From: Streptomonospora litoralis
Lineage (GTDB): Bacteria > Actinomycetota > Actinomycetes > Streptosporangiales > Streptosporangiaceae
Assembly: GCF_004323735.1 (NCBI RefSeq)
Contig: NZ_CP036455.1
Coordinates: forward strand, 4,769,101 to 4,833,100
Reading direction: 5' to 3'
DNA length: 64,000 nt
Shown: piece by piece, positions 41,370-51,849 of the stretch
Layout: each line of letters opens with the position of its first letter
Position numbering within the stretch: the first letter of the stretch is position 1
Position numbers and translations under genes: made by a program
The notes under the pieces: generated by a model
The model's input: the letters and a program-made list of their open reading frames with translations, nothing else
The model's database searches: none
Told to the model about the DNA's origin: nothing

Positions 41370-43028
<1,659 letters not shown>

Positions 43029-43150: not shown

Positions 43151-43462
43151 AGGTCAGCCGGGAAAAATTCACCCGGGGTCATCGTCGCAGCACAGCGGCC
43201 CACCGAGGCTCTGCGGGCACCCACAGCCATTGTCCCACGGGCAACGAATCGCACTACGCAACGCATTGCGCAAGACGCACCCCGAAAAAAGAAAGGGCGA
43301 CCGGGAAACAATGCTGAATTCCCGATAGGCTATACTTCTCTCCCCACTCGCCGACACCCCCGCCGAGGCGGCCCGATCAGGCGGGCCGCGGTGGGCCTCG
43401 GGCGGCGCCGGCTCGGCCGTCCGGCGGCGTGCACGAGCGCGCTGGAACCGCCTTCGTTACTG

Positions 43463-43468
43463 GATAAT
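43463..43468 (+). promoter_or_regulatory. -10 element (GATAAT) of a probably leaderless MocR transcript
   Basis: GATAAT preceded by TG lies six bases before the MocR ATG, leaving no room for a ribosome site; the transcript should begin at or next to the ATG. Confidence 0.5.
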
Positions 43469-43474
43469 GCGGGC

Positions 43475-44788
43475 ATGGGCATCACCGGACGCCGATCCAA
43501 CGAGATCGCCGACAGCGCCGAGCGAGCGATCGCCGACGGCGAACTCCGCGCCGGTGCCGCGCTCCCTCCGATCCGCGATCTCGCCGGCGAACTGGGTGTG
43601 AATCCGAACACAGTCGCGGCCGCCTACCGCATGCTGCGCGAGCGCGGACTGGTGGAGACCGCCGGCCGCAGGGGCACGCACGTGCGCCCGCACCCGCTCG
43701 GCGCCCCGCGGGAGAGCGAGCCGGGGACCGTGCCGCCGGGCGTCCGCGACGCCGCGACCGGCAACCCCGATCCGCGCCTGCTCCCCGACCTCTCCGGCGC
43801 TCTGGCCGCGGTCGCCGGGCACCGCTCGGGCCGCCACGCCCTGTACGGCGACCCGCCGCTGCTCCCGCGGATCGCGCACACGGCCCGCGAGATCTTCGAA
43901 GCCGACGGCGTGCCCGCGGAGCGCCTCGCGGCCACCTCAGGAGCACTCGACGCCATCGACCGGGTGCTGCGCTCCTCGCTGCGGCCCGGCGACAGCGCCG
44001 TCGTGGAGGACCCCGGGTGGTCGAGCACGCTGAACCTGCTGACCGCGCTGGGCATCCGGCCGGTGCCCGCGGCGATCGACGACGAGGGGATGCTGCCCGA
44101 CGCGTTGGCGGCCGCGCTGCGCAGCGGCGCCCGCGCGGTGGTGGTCACCGACCGCGCGCAGAACCCCTTCGGCTCGGCGCTGAGCCCGCAGCGAGCGGCG
44201 GCGCTGCGCGCGGTGCTCTCCGATCATCCCGACGTGCTCACCGTCGACGACGACCACGGCTTCGGGTTCGTCAGCGCGCCCTTTCGCAGCCTGGTCGGCG
44301 CAACCCGGCGGTGGGCACTGGTGCGGTCGGTGGCCAAGACCTACGGGCCGGACCTGCGCCTGGCCCTGCTCACGGGCGACGCGGTGACCGTCGAGCGGGT
44401 GCGGGCACAGCAGCAGGCCGGTCCGGGCTGGGTCAGCACCGTGCTGCAGGAGGCGTTCTCTGAGCTGTGGCGCACCGGCGCCGTCGACTGGGCGCGCACC
44501 GCCCGCTCCTACGACGAGCGGCGCGAAGCGCTCGTCGCCCGCCTGGCCGACCACGGCGTCGGCGGCCGGGGCCGCAGCGGCGTCAACGTGTGGGTCCCGG
44601 TCGAGGACGAGGCCGCCACGGTGACCGCCCTGCACGCGCGCGGCTGGGCGGTGGCGCCCGGCCGGCGCTTCCGCCTGGAGTCCGGGCCGGGGATCAGGGT
44701 GACGATCTCGGCTGTGGACGCCGCCGAGCTGTCCGGGCTCGCCGCGGACATCGCGGCCGCCACCCAGGCGGGCGGGCCTCCCGTATAG
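43475..44788 (+). CDS. MocR/GntR-type regulator with aminotransferase domain
   Basis: A 437-residue regulator. An N-terminal GntR winged helix (LRAGAALPPIRDLAGELGVNPNTVAAAYRMLRERGLVE) is joined to a type-I PLP aminotransferase-like domain. In that domain ATSGALDAIDRVLRSSLRPGD, VVVTDRAQNPFGSAL, VDDDHGF and SVAKTYGPDLRLAL, with the PLP lysine, are visible. MocR proteins sense PLP or amines; many control pyridoxal or amino acid metabolism. The obvious target would be a divergent gene, here the betaine methyltransferase 446 bp away. This link is only positional. Confidence 0.92.
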   Translation: MGITGRRSNEIADSAERAIADGELRAGAALPPIRDLAGELGVNPNTVAAAYRMLRERGLVETAGRRGTHVRPHPLGAPRESEPGTVPPGVRDAATGNPDPRLLPDLSGALAAVAGHRSGRHALYGDPPLLPRIAHTAREIFEADGVPAERLAATSGALDAIDRVLRSSLRPGDSAVVEDPGWSSTLNLLTALGIRPVPAAIDDEGMLPDALAAALRSGARAVVVTDRAQNPFGSALSPQRAAALRAVLSDHPDVLTVDDDHGFGFVSAPFRSLVGATRRWALVRSVAKTYGPDLRLALLTGDAVTVERVRAQQQAGPGWVSTVLQEAFSELWRTGAVDWARTARSYDERREALVARLADHGVGGRGRSGVNVWVPVEDEAATVTALHARGWAVAPGRRFRLESGPGIRVTISAVDAAELSGLAADIAAATQAGGPPV

Positions 44789-44964
44789 CGTCGGACACCG
44801 CACCGGAGCCGCGGTCGGCGCCCGGGGCGGACCGCGGCACCGGGCGCTCTCGTCGCCCCGGAGAAGCCCGCTGACCAGCGCCGACGATCGGAATGTGGTT
44901 TTCGCCGGTGGCGGCCGGGTATGGGGCCACCAACCGTGTTCGGGCCGTATCGGGGGGAAACGGC

Positions 44965-45570
44965 ATGAGCGAATATGGCAGCGAGCGGCGGGTCAACGCA
45001 GGCAGGTTATGGTCGGGCGGCCTCGCCACGGCCGTGGTCGCGGCACTGATCATCCTGGTCGGCGCACTGGTGGTGCGGGGAGTGCTGGGCATCCCGGTAC
45101 TCGCTCCGGAGGAGGCGGGCTACGCCGGCGACGCCGGAACCGCCGCCTATGCGGTCGTGGCAGGGATCGCCGCGCTGGTGGCGACCGCGCTGCTGCACCT
45201 GCTGCTGGTCAGCGCGCCGCGGGCGACGACGTTCTTCGGCTGGATCGTCGGGCTGGCCACGATCGTCGCGGCCGTGAGCCCGTTCACCCAGGAGGCGGCG
45301 CTACCCAGCCAACTGGCCACCGCCGTCATCAACACCGTGACCGGAATCGCGATCGTCTCGCTGCTGAGCAGCGTGGGAGCCACGGCGGTGCGGCGCCGGC
45401 GCCCTTCGGTCGAGCGCGACGTGCCCGAGAGCGCCGAGTTCGACGACTCCGGCTACTCCAGCGGCTACCGCGACGCCCTGGGCGAGTCCCCGGCGCGCCG
45501 CTACGACGGCCGCCACCGCGGAAACGATCCCTACGATCCCGCTCGGGCCCGCGACTCGTCCCGCGAATGA
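44965..45570 (+). CDS. DUF6069-type four-helix membrane protein
   Basis: A 201-residue protein with four membrane helices between residues of about 15 and 145: GLATAVVAALIILVGALVV, AAYAVVAGIAALVATALLHLLL, TTFFGWIVGLATIVAAVSPF and VINTVTGIAIVSLLSSVGATAV. A charged C-terminal tail rich in Arg, Asp and Tyr follows. The arrangement fits the DUF6069 family of actinobacteria, which has no assigned function. GGGGGG lies before the ATG. The upstream 176 bp shows no assignable feature. Confidence 0.82.
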   Translation: MSEYGSERRVNAGRLWSGGLATAVVAALIILVGALVVRGVLGIPVLAPEEAGYAGDAGTAAYAVVAGIAALVATALLHLLLVSAPRATTFFGWIVGLATIVAAVSPFTQEAALPSQLATAVINTVTGIAIVSLLSSVGATAVRRRRPSVERDVPESAEFDDSGYSSGYRDALGESPARRYDGRHRGNDPYDPARARDSSRE

Positions 45571-45762: not shown

Positions 45763-46575
45763 TCAGCCGGGGGCGCGGTCGCGGCGGATGTCGGCCAAGG
45801 TGCGGGCGAACGGCTCGGAGTGCACGCCGGCGCGGCCGCACATCTCCATCGAGCCGACACGCGGCACCGGGGCGGGCCGGGCCAGCCGGGTCTCGCGCAG
45901 GACACCGCCGACGGCGGCCTCCCAGGCGGGGCGCAGATCCTGGGGATCGACCCCGATACCGGCTTCGGCGGCGGTGCGCGAGACCTCGTCGGACAGGAAC
46001 AGTTCGCCGGTGCACGGCCACACTTCTCCCAGCGCCGTGTCGAGCCGCCGCCGATCCTCCTCGGCGGCCGCCAGCCGCAGCATCCAGCGCACGGCGTGGT
46101 CGCGGTGGAAGGGCAGCTCACGCACCGCGGTCCGGGCGATGGCGCCCAGCGACTCGTCGGCCGAGTCGGCGAGGGCGGTGTAGAGCTCCAGCGCGTAGGT
46201 GGAGAACAGCAGTTGGCGGACGACGGTGTGCGCGAGATCGGTGTTGGGCGACTCCACCAGCCGCACGTTGAGGTACTGGTCGGCGCCGCGGCCGCGGATG
46301 AGGTCTTCCTCGGTCCGCAGCACGCCGGTGAGCTGCTCCTCCATACGGCCGGCGCAGCCCAGCAGGGAGCCGGCCAGGCGCAGCAGGCCGCGTGCGATGC
46401 GGGCGGCCTCGTATGCGGCGTCGTGGGCGTCGGTGCCGCACGCCTGACGCCACAGTCCGCTGCTTTCGGTCTCGGCCAACCGGTGTCCGGCCACCAGCGC
46501 GTCGTCGCCCAGCCGCAGCACGTACGCCGTCGCGGCGGTGTCCGCGGCGGCGGCCGAGGCCCCTCTTTCGTTCAT
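45763..46575 (-). CDS. PaaC-like subunit of phenylacetyl-CoA epoxidase (orphan)
   Basis: A 270-residue ferritin-like protein that closely follows PaaC, the structural partner of PaaA in the phenylacetyl-CoA epoxidase: AAATAYVLRLGDDALVAGHRLAET, YEAARIARGLLRLAGSLLGCAG, QYLNVRLVESPNTDLAHTVVRQLLFSTY, LPFHRDHAVRWMLRLA and WPCTGELF. The catalytic iron site belongs to PaaA, and PaaC has no iron. None of paaA, paaB, paaD, paaE or paaK is in this window. It may work with subunits encoded elsewhere, or be a repurposed paralogue. Confidence 0.85.
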   Translation of the reverse strand: MNERGASAAAADTAATAYVLRLGDDALVAGHRLAETESSGLWRQACGTDAHDAAYEAARIARGLLRLAGSLLGCAGRMEEQLTGVLRTEEDLIRGRGADQYLNVRLVESPNTDLAHTVVRQLLFSTYALELYTALADSADESLGAIARTAVRELPFHRDHAVRWMLRLAAAEEDRRRLDTALGEVWPCTGELFLSDEVSRTAAEAGIGVDPQDLRPAWEAAVGGVLRETRLARPAPVPRVGSMEMCGRAGVHSEPFARTLADIRRDRAPG

Positions 46576-47260
46576 CGCGATCCCCCAAGGCAAGAGTGCG
46601 GGACGCGCCGCCGGGCGCTCGTCGCGCACCGCGCCGCGGTGCCGCGGTGCCGCGGCCGCAGGTAGCGGGACGCGCTCCGGCGGGCGGCGCACCCATCCCC
46701 CTACCCGTGCCGGGCCGATGTGGACACCTGGCGACCCGGCGATGCGGGCGTGCTGTGTGTGATCTCCGCGGGCGGTGGTGTGGCGCATCTCGCCTTCGGC
46801 GGCCCGGGCTCCGCCGAGGGGAGAAAGCGCAGGTGAGCGCCACCGACGAGGCGCCGGAGAACACGCGTCTGCGTCACTCGCGTCACGAAAAGGCCACGGC
46901 ACTGTGGTATCGTCCCGTCGGATGCTTGATTCTAAGCATCTTAGGAATGAGGGGGAGCGGCGCTCGCACATCGCGAGCCGCCCATCGGGCCGAACAGGCC
47001 ACAGCCATCTGCCGCCGACCGCCTTCTGCCGACTACGCGCCCGCGGCACTACGGCACGGCAGGCAGCGTAGATCCACATATGCCTGGCACATCGGTTGTC
47101 AGCATGGGGGTAACCGACTTTGGAAAACCAGCCTCGCCTATGCGGCGCGTCGACCAACGTGCTGGCCGGCACGTTCGGGAAGAACCCTCGCCCTGCGGGC
47201 GACGGGAGCGCCGCACCGGGCCCCAGGGCAACGGTATCGGCGCGACACCCCGGAGCGGAC
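46576..47260. other. 685-bp intergenic region without a supported gene
   Basis: No gene is supported. A dyad (GATGCTT / AAGCATC, 46921-46940) sits in an AT-rich patch, with TTAGG after it, and may mark a promoter with an operator for the STAS gene. A GGGTAAC at 47108 resembles a stress sigma -10 hexamer, but no matching -35 was found. Confidence 0.35.
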
Positions 47261-47626
47261 ATGGCCTCGCTGAAGATCACCCGCCGCGACCGCGACGACT
47301 GCGTCGTGCTCGCGCCCAGCGGCGAAATCGACATGGCCGCTGAGGACCAGTTCCACCGTGCGGTACTCGCGGCGGTCGACGACCGCCCGCAGGGGCGCCT
47401 CGTCCTCGACTTCTCCCGCCTGGTCTTCATCGACTCCAGCGGACTGCGGGTCCTCATCCAGGCGCACAAGGCCACCAAGGCCGCCGGTGGAAGCCTCGCC
47501 ATCGCGGCCGCCTCCGAGCGGATCGCCCGCATTCTGCACGTGACCGCCATCGACACCCGCGTGGCCGTCTTCCCCACCGTCGAGGCGGCGCTCGCGGCCG
47601 CCCAGGAGAGCTCCAGCGCGGGCTGA
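47261..47626 (+). CDS. STAS-domain anti-anti-sigma factor
   Basis: A 121-residue STAS-only protein of the SpoIIAA/RsbV type: DDCVVLAPSGEIDMAAEDQFHRAV, then LVLDFSRLVFIDSSGLRVLIQAHKATKAAG. FIDSSGLRVL contains the serine normally phosphorylated by a switch kinase. In that form it cannot bind its anti-sigma factor. The start is ATG 47261; longer upstream in-frame starts are not supported by sequence character. No kinase or sigma gene is adjacent. Confidence 0.92.
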   Translation: MASLKITRRDRDDCVVLAPSGEIDMAAEDQFHRAVLAAVDDRPQGRLVLDFSRLVFIDSSGLRVLIQAHKATKAAGGSLAIAAASERIARILHVTAIDTRVAVFPTVEAALAAAQESSSAG

Positions 47627-47733: not shown

Positions 47734-48444
47734 TCAGAACATCAGCAGCCAGATACCCGTCGCAGTCACCGCGACGTTCACCACCCCGAAGAACAGCACC
47801 CACACGACGCCCGGGAGTCCCGTCAACCGGTGCAGCTGGTCGGCGTCGGACTGCGGCGACGGCTGGCGGCTGCGCTGCGCCTGCAGCTCGAACACCGGGC
47901 GGATCCCCGCCAGGAGCAGGAACCAGGTGAAGAAGTAGGCGAACGCGGCCTGTATCTCGGCCGGGGTGAACCAGGAGACGAGGAAAACCACGGCTCCGGT
48001 ACCCACCACCGAGACCACGCCGTAGACGTTGCGGATCAGCAGCAGCATCGCCGCCAGCACCAGGATGCTCATCCACAGCAGCGCCGTGATGCGGTTGTTC
48101 ACCAGGAGCAGGATGGCCAGCAGGCCCACGATCGAGGGTGTGATGTAGCCCGCGGCGACGGTCAGGATCATTCCCGGCCCGCGCGGCTTGCCGCGGGAGA
48201 CCGTCACTCCCGAGGTGTCGGAGTGCAGCCGGATGCCGGTGAGCTGGCGGCCGCTGAGCAGCGCCACGACGGCGTGCCCGCCTTCGTGGGCGATGGTGAC
48301 GACGTTGCGGGCGACGCGCCAGGGGCCGCGGACGACGACCACGATCAGCGCGGCGACCCCCACGGCGATGACGAGCCAGGTGGGGGGCGGTGTCTGGACC
48401 GAGAACGCCTCCTGCCAGACGTCCCCGAACGTAGTCGCTTCCAT
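47734..48444 (-). CDS. M50-like membrane metalloprotease family protein
   Basis: A 236-residue membrane protein with several helices. The zinc-type motif HEGGHAV is in NVVTIAHEGGHAVVALLSGRQ, in or near a helix, as in M50B-type proteins. A third ligand is not obvious. The last 60 residues include an RLTGLPGVVWVLFFGVVNV helix. Related actinobacterial proteins are annotated as M50 or uncharacterised membrane proteins; proteolytic activity here is unproven. The start at ATG 48444 is used; an upstream ATG at 48471 would add nine residues. Confidence 0.8.
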   Translation of the reverse strand: MEATTFGDVWQEAFSVQTPPPTWLVIAVGVAALIVVVVRGPWRVARNVVTIAHEGGHAVVALLSGRQLTGIRLHSDTSGVTVSRGKPRGPGMILTVAAGYITPSIVGLLAILLLVNNRITALLWMSILVLAAMLLLIRNVYGVVSVVGTGAVVFLVSWFTPAEIQAAFAYFFTWFLLLAGIRPVFELQAQRSRQPSPQSDADQLHRLTGLPGVVWVLFFGVVNVAVTATGIWLLMF

Positions 48445-48570
48445 CGGCCCGCTCTCCCATCGTTCAGCCACTCAGGCGCAAACTGTAGGGCATGGCACGG
48501 GGGCGCCCGCCCGAATGGACGGACGCCCCCGCAACGGGTGGGCGCGGGCCTGCGCCGGTTCTCGCCGTCG

Positions 48571-48750: not shown

Positions 48751-49722
48751 TTAGTCGGCGCTGACGCTCACCGAGCCGGTTGTGCTGCTGACCAGGATGC
48801 GCGAGCCGGCATCAGGGGAGGTTTCCACGTCGATGTCCCGGTCACCCGTCGTGGATTCCCCGCCGATCCGGTACGTGCCGTCGGGGACCTCCACCTCGGC
48901 CGAGCCGGTGGTGGTCTCCACGGCGAGGCGAGAGAAGGGCTCCAGCGCCTCGACCTCGACCTGGCCGGTCGTGGTCTCGATCTCGGCGACGGAGAAGCCC
49001 GCCTCCAGGTCGACGCCGCCGGTCGTGGTCTCGATCTCGAACCGGTCGGCCTGCAATCCGCCGAAGTCCACCTGGCCAGTGGTGGCCTCGGCGACCACGG
49101 TCCCGCCGGTGCCCTCCGCGCTGAGGGAGCCGGTGTTGGACTCCAGGTCGAGGTCGCCCTCGACGCCGCTCAGCTCGATATCGCCGGTGGTGGTGGCGGC
49201 GTGCACGTCGCCCCGAAGGTCCTCGCCGGTGATGGAGCCGGAACCGGCCTCCACGTCGACCTCGCCCGCGATCCCCTCCAGCTCCACGTCGCCGGAGTGC
49301 GCCTCGATGGTGACCGCGGTGCCCTCCGGCACGCCGATCGAGTAGTCCACCTCGCAGCCGCCGAAGAACCAGCCACCGCCGCACTTCGCCCCGGCGGTGA
49401 CCGTGCCGCCTTTCATGTCGAGCTTCTCCCGCGCGTCGGCCAGCGGCGTGCCCTGCAGCTCTCGTTCGACGGTGACCTCGTCGCCCGCGACACGGTGGAC
49501 CGAGACGTCACCGCTGGAGCCGTTGTGGACCGCCACCGCGTCGGCGCCGGTGAAATCGTCGGTGCGGGACTCGCCGCCCAACTGGACGCTGCCGAAGGCC
49601 GCCAGAGTGCCGCCGAGCAGCACGACCAGCGCCACCACCGCCCCGATCAGCAGCCAGCCGGAGCGCCGCCCGCGCGGCTCCTTGCTGGATGCGGCGTAGA
49701 GCCCGCGTCCGGTGAATGTCAT
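48751..49722 (-). CDS. DUF4097 beta-repeat membrane-anchored protein
   Basis: A 323-residue protein with one N-terminal membrane helix (GWLLIGAVVALVVLLGGTLAA), then a long extracytoplasmic beta-helix-like domain made of repeated TTTG-x-V-E/D units (ATTTGDIELSG, ETTTGGVDLEAG, ETTTGQVEVEAL). This is the DUF4097 pattern seen in adhesin-like and LiaF-type proteins. It follows the kinase and response-regulator genes on the same strand, 88 bp after the latter, and is probably their target or partner. Confidence 0.9.
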   Translation of the reverse strand: MTFTGRGLYAASSKEPRGRRSGWLLIGAVVALVVLLGGTLAAFGSVQLGGESRTDDFTGADAVAVHNGSSGDVSVHRVAGDEVTVERELQGTPLADAREKLDMKGGTVTAGAKCGGGWFFGGCEVDYSIGVPEGTAVTIEAHSGDVELEGIAGEVDVEAGSGSITGEDLRGDVHAATTTGDIELSGVEGDLDLESNTGSLSAEGTGGTVVAEATTGQVDFGGLQADRFEIETTTGGVDLEAGFSVAEIETTTGQVEVEALEPFSRLAVETTTGSAEVEVPDGTYRIGGESTTGDRDIDVETSPDAGSRILVSSTTGSVSVSAD

Positions 49723-49810: not shown

Positions 49811-50485
49811 TCAAGGGGCGGCGCTGCGGTGTTCGCCGCCGCGCAGGTACTCCAAAACCGCCCGCACGCGGCGGTGGTCGTGGTCGTCCTGGCCGAGGTC
49901 GAGCTTGGTGAATATGGCGCGGATGTGCTTCTCGACGGCGCGTTCGGTGATGAACAACCGGGTGGCGATGCCGACGTTGTTCAGCCCCTCGGCCATCACG
50001 CCGAGTACCTCGCTCTCCCGCGGGCTGAGCCGCTGGATCGCGCTGTCGTCGCGCCGGCTGAGCAACTGGGACACCACCTCGGGATCGATGGCGGTCCCGC
50101 CGGCGGCGACGCGCCGCAAGGTGACGAGGAACTCGTCGATGTCGGCGACGCGGTCCTTGAGCAGGTAGCCCACACCGCCGGCGTCGCCGCCCAGCAGCTC
50201 GGCGGCGTAGCGGCTGACGACGTGCTGGGACAGCAGCAGGACCGCGACGCCGGGTTTGCGGCGGCGGATCTCGACGGCCGCTTGCAGGCCCTCCTCGGCG
50301 TAGCCGGGCGGCATCCGGATATCGACCAGGCAGAGGTCGACGTCACCGTGGGCATCCACGGCCGCGAGCAGCTCCTCCGCGTCGCCGACGGCGGCGGGCA
50401 CCTCGACACCGGCGTCCTCCAGAAGTTTGACCATGCCGCTGCGCAGCAGCACGGAGTCCTCGGCGACGATGATGCGCACGGTCAT
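49811..50485 (-). CDS. NarL/LuxR-family response regulator
   Basis: A 224-residue response regulator. The receiver domain has the acidic pair in VAEDS, phosphoacceptor Asp55 in LCLVDIRMP and Lys in YLLKDRVAD. The C-terminal LuxR-type HTH is RLSPRESEVLGVMAEGLNNVGIATRLFITERAVEKHIRAIFTKL. Its ATG overlaps the kinase TGA by four bases, so the pair is coupled. The adjacent DUF4097 gene is the likely regulated gene. Confidence 0.95.
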   Translation of the reverse strand: MTVRIIVAEDSVLLRSGMVKLLEDAGVEVPAAVGDAEELLAAVDAHGDVDLCLVDIRMPPGYAEEGLQAAVEIRRRKPGVAVLLLSQHVVSRYAAELLGGDAGGVGYLLKDRVADIDEFLVTLRRVAAGGTAIDPEVVSQLLSRRDDSAIQRLSPRESEVLGVMAEGLNNVGIATRLFITERAVEKHIRAIFTKLDLGQDDHDHRRVRAVLEYLRGGEHRSAAP

Positions 50486-51849
50486 GCCTCCCAGGGGATG
50501 TCGGCGGTGAGGACGGTTCCCGCACCGGCCGGACTGTCTACGGACAAGGTGCCGTCGACGGCGTTGACGCGGTCCCACAGGCCGTAGAGGCCCGAACCGG
50601 AGTCGGGGTCGGCGCCGCCCTTGCCGTCGTCGGTGACGGTGAGCCGGAGCAGGTCGCCGGAGGCGCCTGCGACCCGGTCGGCGCGCACCTCCACGCTTGC
50701 GGCGCCGGCGTGCTTGGCGACGTTGGTAAGTGCCTCGCAGGCGACGTAGTAGGCGACGCCCTCGGCGCGTGCGGAGGGCCGCTCGGGCAGCTCCACGCGC
50801 ACCTGTACCGGCACCGGGCAGCGGCCGGCGGCCACGGGAAGCGCCGCCTCCAGGCCGTGGTCGGTGAGGGCGCGCGGGTGCAGGCCGCGGGCGACCTCGC
50901 GCAGTTCGGCCATCACCGCCTTGGCTTCGCTTCGCGCCTCGTCGATGAGCGTGCGCACCTCGTCGGCGTCACCCGCGCGGTCGGACTTGGCGCGCGCCCG
51001 GCTGAGGGTCATGGTCACCGCGAGGAGCCGCTGCTGCGCGCCGTCGTGCAGGTCGCGCTCGATGCGGCGGCGTTCGGCCTCGGCCGCGTCCACCATGCGC
51101 GAGCGGCTGTCCTGCACGTGTGCCAGGCGGCGCCGGATCAGCATCTCCGGCGCGTCCAGCAACAGCCGGCGGCTGACCTCGACCTCCAGCCGCACCAGCA
51201 GCGGCACCACCCACAGGCCGACGGCCGCGCCCACCGGGCCGAGGAAGACCGCGGCCAGCGGCACCGCCGGCTCCAGGGATCCGGCGGCCAGCGCGTAGCC
51301 GACGCCGACGATGGACCCCAGGGCCATCGCGCTGCCGTAGACGACCAGGCCCAGCGCGATACCGCCGAAGACGACGCCCTGGATGCCGGTCAGCGTCGCG
51401 CACACGAAGGCGGTCCAGGCGTCGCGGCCGTAGAGGTAGGCGACGCCGCGCAGCAGCAGTACGGCGGGATTGCGCGTCGCACGGGCGGCGGGTTCGCGCG
51501 GGCGGGACTCGACGATGCCGAAGACGTCCTCCAGGCGGCGGCGCTGGATACGGCAGGCCAGCCGCGAGAGCAGGGTGGCCGCGGCGAGCAGGACGGCGGT
51601 CAAGGCCAGCAGGACCGCCAGCGGGGGCGGATCGCCCTCGGGAATCCCGCCGAGGAAGCCGGAGAAGAAACTGAGGATGTAGGCGACGCCTTGGACGGTC
51701 ACCAGCAGCACGGGGATCAGGTAGCCGACGGACAGCGCGAAGGACGTCAGCAGATGCAGCAGGCCGAACAGCCGGCCCTTGGCCGGGGCCGCGTCGGCGC
51801 CGCCGGTCCGCAGCGGGTCCGCGGCGCCGGGGGCCGCGGTTGCGCGCAC
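50482..51849 (-). CDS. NarL-type sensor histidine kinase
   Basis: A 455-residue kinase. It has an N-terminal membrane region with about five helices (residues 30-60, 75-100, 130-170, 180-210). The dimerisation/phosphoacceptor segment EAERRRIERDLHDGAQQRLLAVTMTL contains the phosphorylated His, and the HATPase domain has ALTNVAKHAGA (N box) and DDGKGGADPDSGSGLYGLWDRV. This is the HPK7 group paired with NarL-type regulators. GTG 51849 follows AAGGAGG. The signal is unknown; it has no large sensor domain, as in LiaS/VraS-type intramembrane-sensing kinases. Confidence 0.93.
   Translation of the reverse strand: MRATAAPGAADPLRTGGADAAPAKGRLFGLLHLLTSFALSVGYLIPVLLVTVQGVAYILSFFSGFLGGIPEGDPPPLAVLLALTAVLLAAATLLSRLACRIQRRRLEDVFGIVESRPREPAARATRNPAVLLLRGVAYLYGRDAWTAFVCATLTGIQGVVFGGIALGLVVYGSAMALGSIVGVGYALAAGSLEPAVPLAAVFLGPVGAAVGLWVVPLLVRLEVEVSRRLLLDAPEMLIRRRLAHVQDSRSRMVDAAEAERRRIERDLHDGAQQRLLAVTMTLSRARAKSDRAGDADEVRTLIDEARSEAKAVMAELREVARGLHPRALTDHGLEAALPVAAGRCPVPVQVRVELPERPSARAEGVAYYVACEALTNVAKHAGAASVEVRADRVAGASGDLLRLTVTDDGKGGADPDSGSGLYGLWDRVNAVDGTLSVDSPAGAGTVLTADIPWEA

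Follow-up and report, generated by a model that had tools for sequence, protein, structure and literature searches.

A lone paaC gene of Streptomonospora litoralis, probable stranded subunit of an ancestral paa operon

The lone paaC gene and its surroundings

The window analysed in this work is a 64 kb stretch of the Streptomonospora litoralis genome (G000:C1:4769101-4833100). Its paaC gene, which we call the orphan, is an open frame with an ATG start (Table 1). The product belongs to the PaaA_PaaC family (PF05138), with 150.2 bits against a cut-off of 28.5, and it is a near miss for the NCBIfam PaaC model TIGR02158, where it scores 132.9 bits, just below the curated cut-off of 133.35. An orthologue is found in all six genomes of the genus, its own included, which places the frame far beyond a chance ORF. 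A seventh orphan is carried by N. trehalosi (G060). Three of these seven orphans pass the TIGR02158 cut-off (135.6, 145.4 and 140.8 bits) and four fail it (132.9, 122.1, 118.7 and 109.5 bits). Just upstream of the start codon lies a Shine-Dalgarno-like GGGGGAT stretch; a G-rich stretch stands at a similar position before the start in each of the six orphans of the Streptomonospora group (g1).

The window was searched using tblastn (E<=1e-3) with 18 query proteins, namely 11 from the paa operon of a relative and the region around it, six from the other paa cluster of the same genome and the orphan itself, and the orphan was the sole match. At this threshold paaA, paaB, paaD and paaE were found neither in the window nor at any of the six other orphan loci. 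The initial annotation had described an orphan without the rest of the phenylacetate pathway. This description holds within the window but not for the contig, which also hosts PaaZ, PaaA, PaaB, a second PaaC, PaaD and PaaE.

Table 1. Positions of the orphan, its neighbours and the other paa genes discussed. Positions without a prefix are those of the window.
Feature	Position	Strand	Evidence
Fused glycine/sarcosine and sarcosine/dimethylglycine N-methyltransferase gene, left flank	41370..43028	-	NF051855, NF041675; synteny
MocR-type regulator gene, left flank	43391..44788	+	GntR and aminotransferase domains; synteny
DUF6069 protein gene, putative left boundary marker of the ancestral paa locus	44893..45570	+	PF19545
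Orphan paaC (270 aa), probable last gene of the ancestral paa operon	45763..46575	-	PF05138, TIGR02158, tree, synteny
GGGGGAT stretch just upstream of the orphan ATG	46580..46586	-	sequence
Junction without paa remnants	46576..47260	.	part of the space filled in relatives by the operon and an 816-aa-type membrane protein gene
STAS-domain anti-sigma-factor antagonist gene, putative right boundary marker of the ancestral paa locus	47120..47626	+	PF01740
M50B peptidase-like gene, right flank	47734..48471	-	PF13398; synteny
DUF4097 protein gene, right flank	48751..49722	-	PF13349; synteny
LuxR-type response regulator gene, right flank, start uncertain	49811..50578	-	PF00072, PF00196; synteny
PaaA, second cluster	C1:44605-45429
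PaaB, second cluster	C1:45531-45800
Cluster PaaC (second PaaC)	C1:45956-46741		TIGR02158, 232.1 bits
Lone paaC of G009 (g5)	L099 9291-10061
Lone paaC of G074 (g5)	L100 9562-10428		TIGR02158, 213.3 bits

A second paa cluster in the same genome

A search of the genome for paaABDE and a second paaC, the check that the initial annotation had proposed, located both on the same contig, in a second paa cluster at C1:42391-48358. This cluster consists of paaABCDE and paaZ, with PaaD and PaaE behind PaaC and a divergent PaaZ in front. The annotation had also named a finding that would speak against it, a complete paa cluster elsewhere lacking its own paaC; the cluster found has its own. The orphan and the cluster PaaC of its genome share 38% identity, and identities between the orphans and the cluster PaaC of the group range from 37 to 42%. 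Both PaaC copies are present in all six g1 genomes, and a complete paa cluster is found in each of the seven orphan-bearing genomes.

A PaaK of TIGR02155 type was not found in the S. litoralis genome, while three of the six genomes of the genus have one over the cut-off. Given an epoxidase cluster and no TIGR02155 PaaK found, another ligase or phenylacetyl-CoA source may serve S. litoralis.

The orphan locus in related genomes

In related genera a paa operon sits between the same neighbours as the orphan, with the methyltransferase, MocR and DUF6069 genes on one side and the STAS, M50B peptidase, DUF4097, response regulator and kinase genes on the other. We compared nine of these native loci (L052-L060, 20 kb each). 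Markers are present on both sides in five, on the STAS side only in two and on the DUF6069 side only in two, and the DUF6069 and STAS genes each adjoin the operon in seven of the nine. The native operons vary in gene content, e.g. paaN and paaK are at the locus in four (L052, L053, L054 and L058). At the other five g1 orphan loci both sides are present throughout, and the MocR gene in three.

The junction listed in Table 1 is DNA conserved in the other g1 loci, and the 816-aa-type membrane protein gene is still present in L049, L050 and L051. A search of both junctions flanking the orphan for paa remnants (E<=10) returned nothing above chance, the best match being 26 residues long with an E-value of 0.043. 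The N. trehalosi locus (L051) is an intermediate. Here paaN (822 bits), a TetR gene and the 816-aa-type gene remain with the orphan, the A, B, D, E and K genes are gone, and the second cluster lies on another contig (L063).

The same locus has a small ORF, a DUF6879 gene and a DUF6082 gene between paaN and the orphan (L051 8960-10719). Similar small ORFs precede paaA in L055, so the spot between paaN and the orphan seems to collect insertions.

A lone paaC might also have arrived separately, by transfer or transposition, and a gene that stands alone with just 38% identity to the cluster copy is what such an arrival would leave. We regard this as very improbable, as the position and neighbours of the orphan match those of the intact operon in relatives, and the tree described below places it inside the native PaaC.

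Phylogeny of the orphan and of the replacing clusters

In a sample of the family, 97 of the 200 genomes have a match to the orphan. The closest proteins outside g1 and N. trehalosi are the PaaC of g7, g9, g11, g19, g22 and g49, at 53-57% identity. We call these genera Nocardiopsis-type, a provisional label suggested by the nearness of N. trehalosi. Each of their genomes that we examined has a single full-strength PaaC, adjoining a PaaA.

The initial annotation had suggested building a PaaC tree to see if orphan copies form a clade, and they do. In a tree of 37 proteins the seven orphans are one clade (100/99), and a single branch (99/97) sets them and the native rows apart from the remaining sequences. 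The AU test rejects a grouping of the orphans with the cluster PaaC (p 2.5e-36). By tree and AU test, the orthologue of the orphan is the operon copy of the relatives rather than the second paaC of the S. litoralis genome. Judged from these sequence comparisons, the window gene is the ancestral copy in its ancestral place, and the copy in the working cluster is from another branch of the family.

The rpoB tree unites N. trehalosi with the six g1 genomes (94/97), so a single stranding event suffices. As a side observation, contig C1 of S. litoralis has two full-length rpoB-like genes, at about 4881609-4884914 and 4259803-4263108, and G080 also has two.

The replacing clusters are not one group. 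The N. trehalosi cluster pairs with that of G058, a member of another genus (PaaC 100/99; PaaA 98/95), and in neither tree is it sister to the Streptomonospora-group cluster; the PaaA tree has little weight, with row G144 wrongly extracted (end branch 5.57). More generally, both the PaaC and the PaaA of the clusters fall together with those of other genera in the family. The clusters may therefore derive from separate acquisitions; alternatively, two clusters may have existed side by side early on, with differential loss afterwards.

Taken together, synteny and phylogeny give strong support to one of the options raised by the initial annotation, a stranded subunit, the other being a paralogue with a new partner. 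It is well supported, from comparisons of genes and gene order, that the orphan is the last subunit of an ancestral paa operon, stranded in place. On this view, the ancestor of the Streptomonospora group and N. trehalosi had a paa operon at the present orphan locus, as related genera do. The work of this operon passed to a different paaABCDE cluster, located at another site in the genome, and the loss of paaA, paaB, paaD and paaE at the old locus left paaC alone.

Selection, conserved columns and predicted structure

Nei-Gojobori dN/dS values for five species pairs are 0.21-0.45 for the orphan and 0.20-0.41 for the cluster PaaC; by the same method the M50B gene has values of 0.11-0.23. Differences between orphans fall mainly in third positions (27, 20 and 70 for G001/G004), and all indels in the five pairs are multiples of three. 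These patterns show purifying selection on the seven orphans, of a strength similar to that on a working PaaC, and a pseudogene is not favoured. Among the neighbours, the DUF4097 protein is unusually fast for this neighbourhood, with dN/dS of 0.42-0.88 in five pairs.

The column reference for conservation was a set of 30 cluster PaaC, of which 14 are native, seven come from the second clusters of orphan-bearing genomes and nine are others. In this set 67 columns are conserved in at least 95% of the sequences; 32 of these are kept by all seven orphans and 17 by none. Nine of the 17 lost columns are in the LEED..AN..LD.LGQ helix, a region where the orphans also have extra residues, three are in the C-terminal Q..R.HP..W tail and five are elsewhere.

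Could the orphan be a slowly decaying relic without function, whose frame stays open simply because stop codons seldom arise in high-GC DNA? The 17 lost near-invariant columns fit this idea, as do the fast stem branch of the orphans (0.28), the long N. trehalosi branch (0.67) and the four orphans below the TIGR02158 cut-off. That said, the gene is intact in all six g1 genomes and in N. trehalosi, its dN/dS is near that of a working PaaC, substitutions are in excess at third positions, indels come in multiples of three and the G-rich stretch before the start is kept. We therefore consider a relic unlikely. Since the orphan is intact and maintained by selection in all of the close relatives examined, it probably has its own role, although the fast stem and the lost columns would also fit a weakened function.

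An AlphaFold2 model of the orphan, built from five sequences, has a pLDDT of 80.6 and a pTM of 0.81; as a control, a native PaaC modelled from five sequences reached a pLDDT of only 69.4. The nine best matches of the orphan model in the PDB are PaaC chains, with TM-scores of 0.73-0.75 by query length. The orphan is thus predicted to keep a PaaC-type helical-bundle fold.

A gained metal site was sought as an E..H motif. None was found in six of the seven orphans, and the G005 orphan has two matches, one of which lies in an upstream-extended or unaligned stretch absent from the other orphans. With no ExxH motif conserved across the orphans, a gained metal site is not supported. The predicted fold and the missing metal motif together imply that the orphan would be non-catalytic, like PaaC.

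Another explanation is that the orphan acts as an alternative or regulatory C subunit, joining the PaaA and PaaB of the cluster and, under some conditions, replacing or competing with the cluster PaaC. The predicted fold is that of PaaC, a complete cluster accompanies all seven orphans and the gene is under purifying selection, all of which suit such a role. However, both conserved segments are lost in all seven orphans, and the cluster PaaC of the group, which has evolved alongside a PaaA of its own, is just 37-42% identical to them. Furthermore, the other lone PaaC, described below, occurs in genomes without detectable PaaA. On balance this explanation is doubtful.

A second lone paaC in genus g5

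Another well conserved lone paaC is found in both g5 genomes examined, G009 and G074. It adjoins a methionine-synthase-like (metE-like) gene, and the paaC is followed by a conserved gene without a Pfam match. Within the 19-20 kb around the paaC no PaaA, B, D or E gene was found, and the only other PF05138 match in the two genomes scores 63.6 bits, in G009. A tree that joins the g5 PaaC with the orphans is rejected (AU p 0.0005).

In a class sample, 183 of the 394 genomes have a match over the cut-off. Among the single-match genomes in the per-genome rows, none has a match stronger than about 5e-17, which indicates that a lone PaaC without PaaA is rare in this sample. In six genomes (G051, G057, G069, G119, G128 and G227) the best PF05138 match is of middling strength. 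It is possible, and we put it forward tentatively, that PaaC has a PaaA-independent function, and that stranding followed by retention took place on two or more independent occasions in this family, once in the lineage of the Streptomonospora group and N. trehalosi and once in g5. The g5 genomes, with a PaaC and no detectable PaaA, make such a role directly testable.

A possible role for the orphan

PMC4498308 describes PaaC as the structural subunit of the known enzyme, the PaaAC tetramer as held together only by PaaC-PaaC contacts, and PaaA as insoluble alone. The structure of PaaC has been solved alone (1otk). PaaC may survive stranding for this reason, being soluble and able to stand alone where PaaA is not.

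Having lost two conserved segments, the orphan is unlikely to serve simply as a spare copy of the cluster PaaC. With these segments lost and selection nevertheless kept, action without PaaA, or modulation of the replacing complex, is likelier than a plain spare. Most likely the orphan would act independently of PaaA, as a soluble bundle that associates with itself; binding to subunits of the replacing complex, as a modulator, is less likely. We give an even chance to the whole proposal, that a stranded ancestral paaC has been kept either as a soluble, non-catalytic bundle without PaaA or as a modulator, with both partner and role inferred.

If the orphan does have its own job, it shows how the structural subunit of a multicomponent monooxygenase can part from the catalytic subunit and be put to another use.

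Comparison with known systems

Together, PaaA and PaaC serve as markers of phenylacetate degradation in genomes, and PMC13186573, which also describes partial and remodelled pathways, reports tight co-evolution of the two. Neither 'orphan' nor 'Streptomonospora' occurs in the text of that paper, and we found no description of a lone paaC in the CC-licensed PubMed Central literature. Conserved lone paaC genes break the PaaA-PaaC pair rule and would mislead pathway calls. Two elements appear to be new, a conserved clade of PaaC proteins that lack the hallmark segments and are still encoded in place, and the independent case in g5.

The orphan is homologous over its full length to the PaaC of the 1,2-phenylacetyl-CoA epoxidase (TIGR02158; PDB 3pvr, 1otk and 4iit), shares 31-33% identity with the PaaC chains over the structural alignment and has the same predicted helical bundle. 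Like PaaC, the orphans have no conserved ExxH motif. Unlike the epoxidase PaaC, the orphan has no adjoining paaA, B, D or E, and the LEED..AN..LD.LGQ helix motif and the Q..R.HP..W tail are lost in all seven orphans. The operon PaaC of related genera (e.g. L053 and L055) is its orthologue, in the same place and on the same branch, at 53-57% identity. This type of PaaC, in contrast to the orphan, resides in a complete paaABCDE operon and keeps all of the conserved columns.

The general phenomenon that the case most resembles is xenologous displacement, in which a homologous operon of another branch takes the place of the resident one, and a gene left behind by a displaced operon is nothing out of the ordinary. 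What sets the present case apart is that one subunit of the displaced operon has apparently been left in place and kept by selection across a genus.
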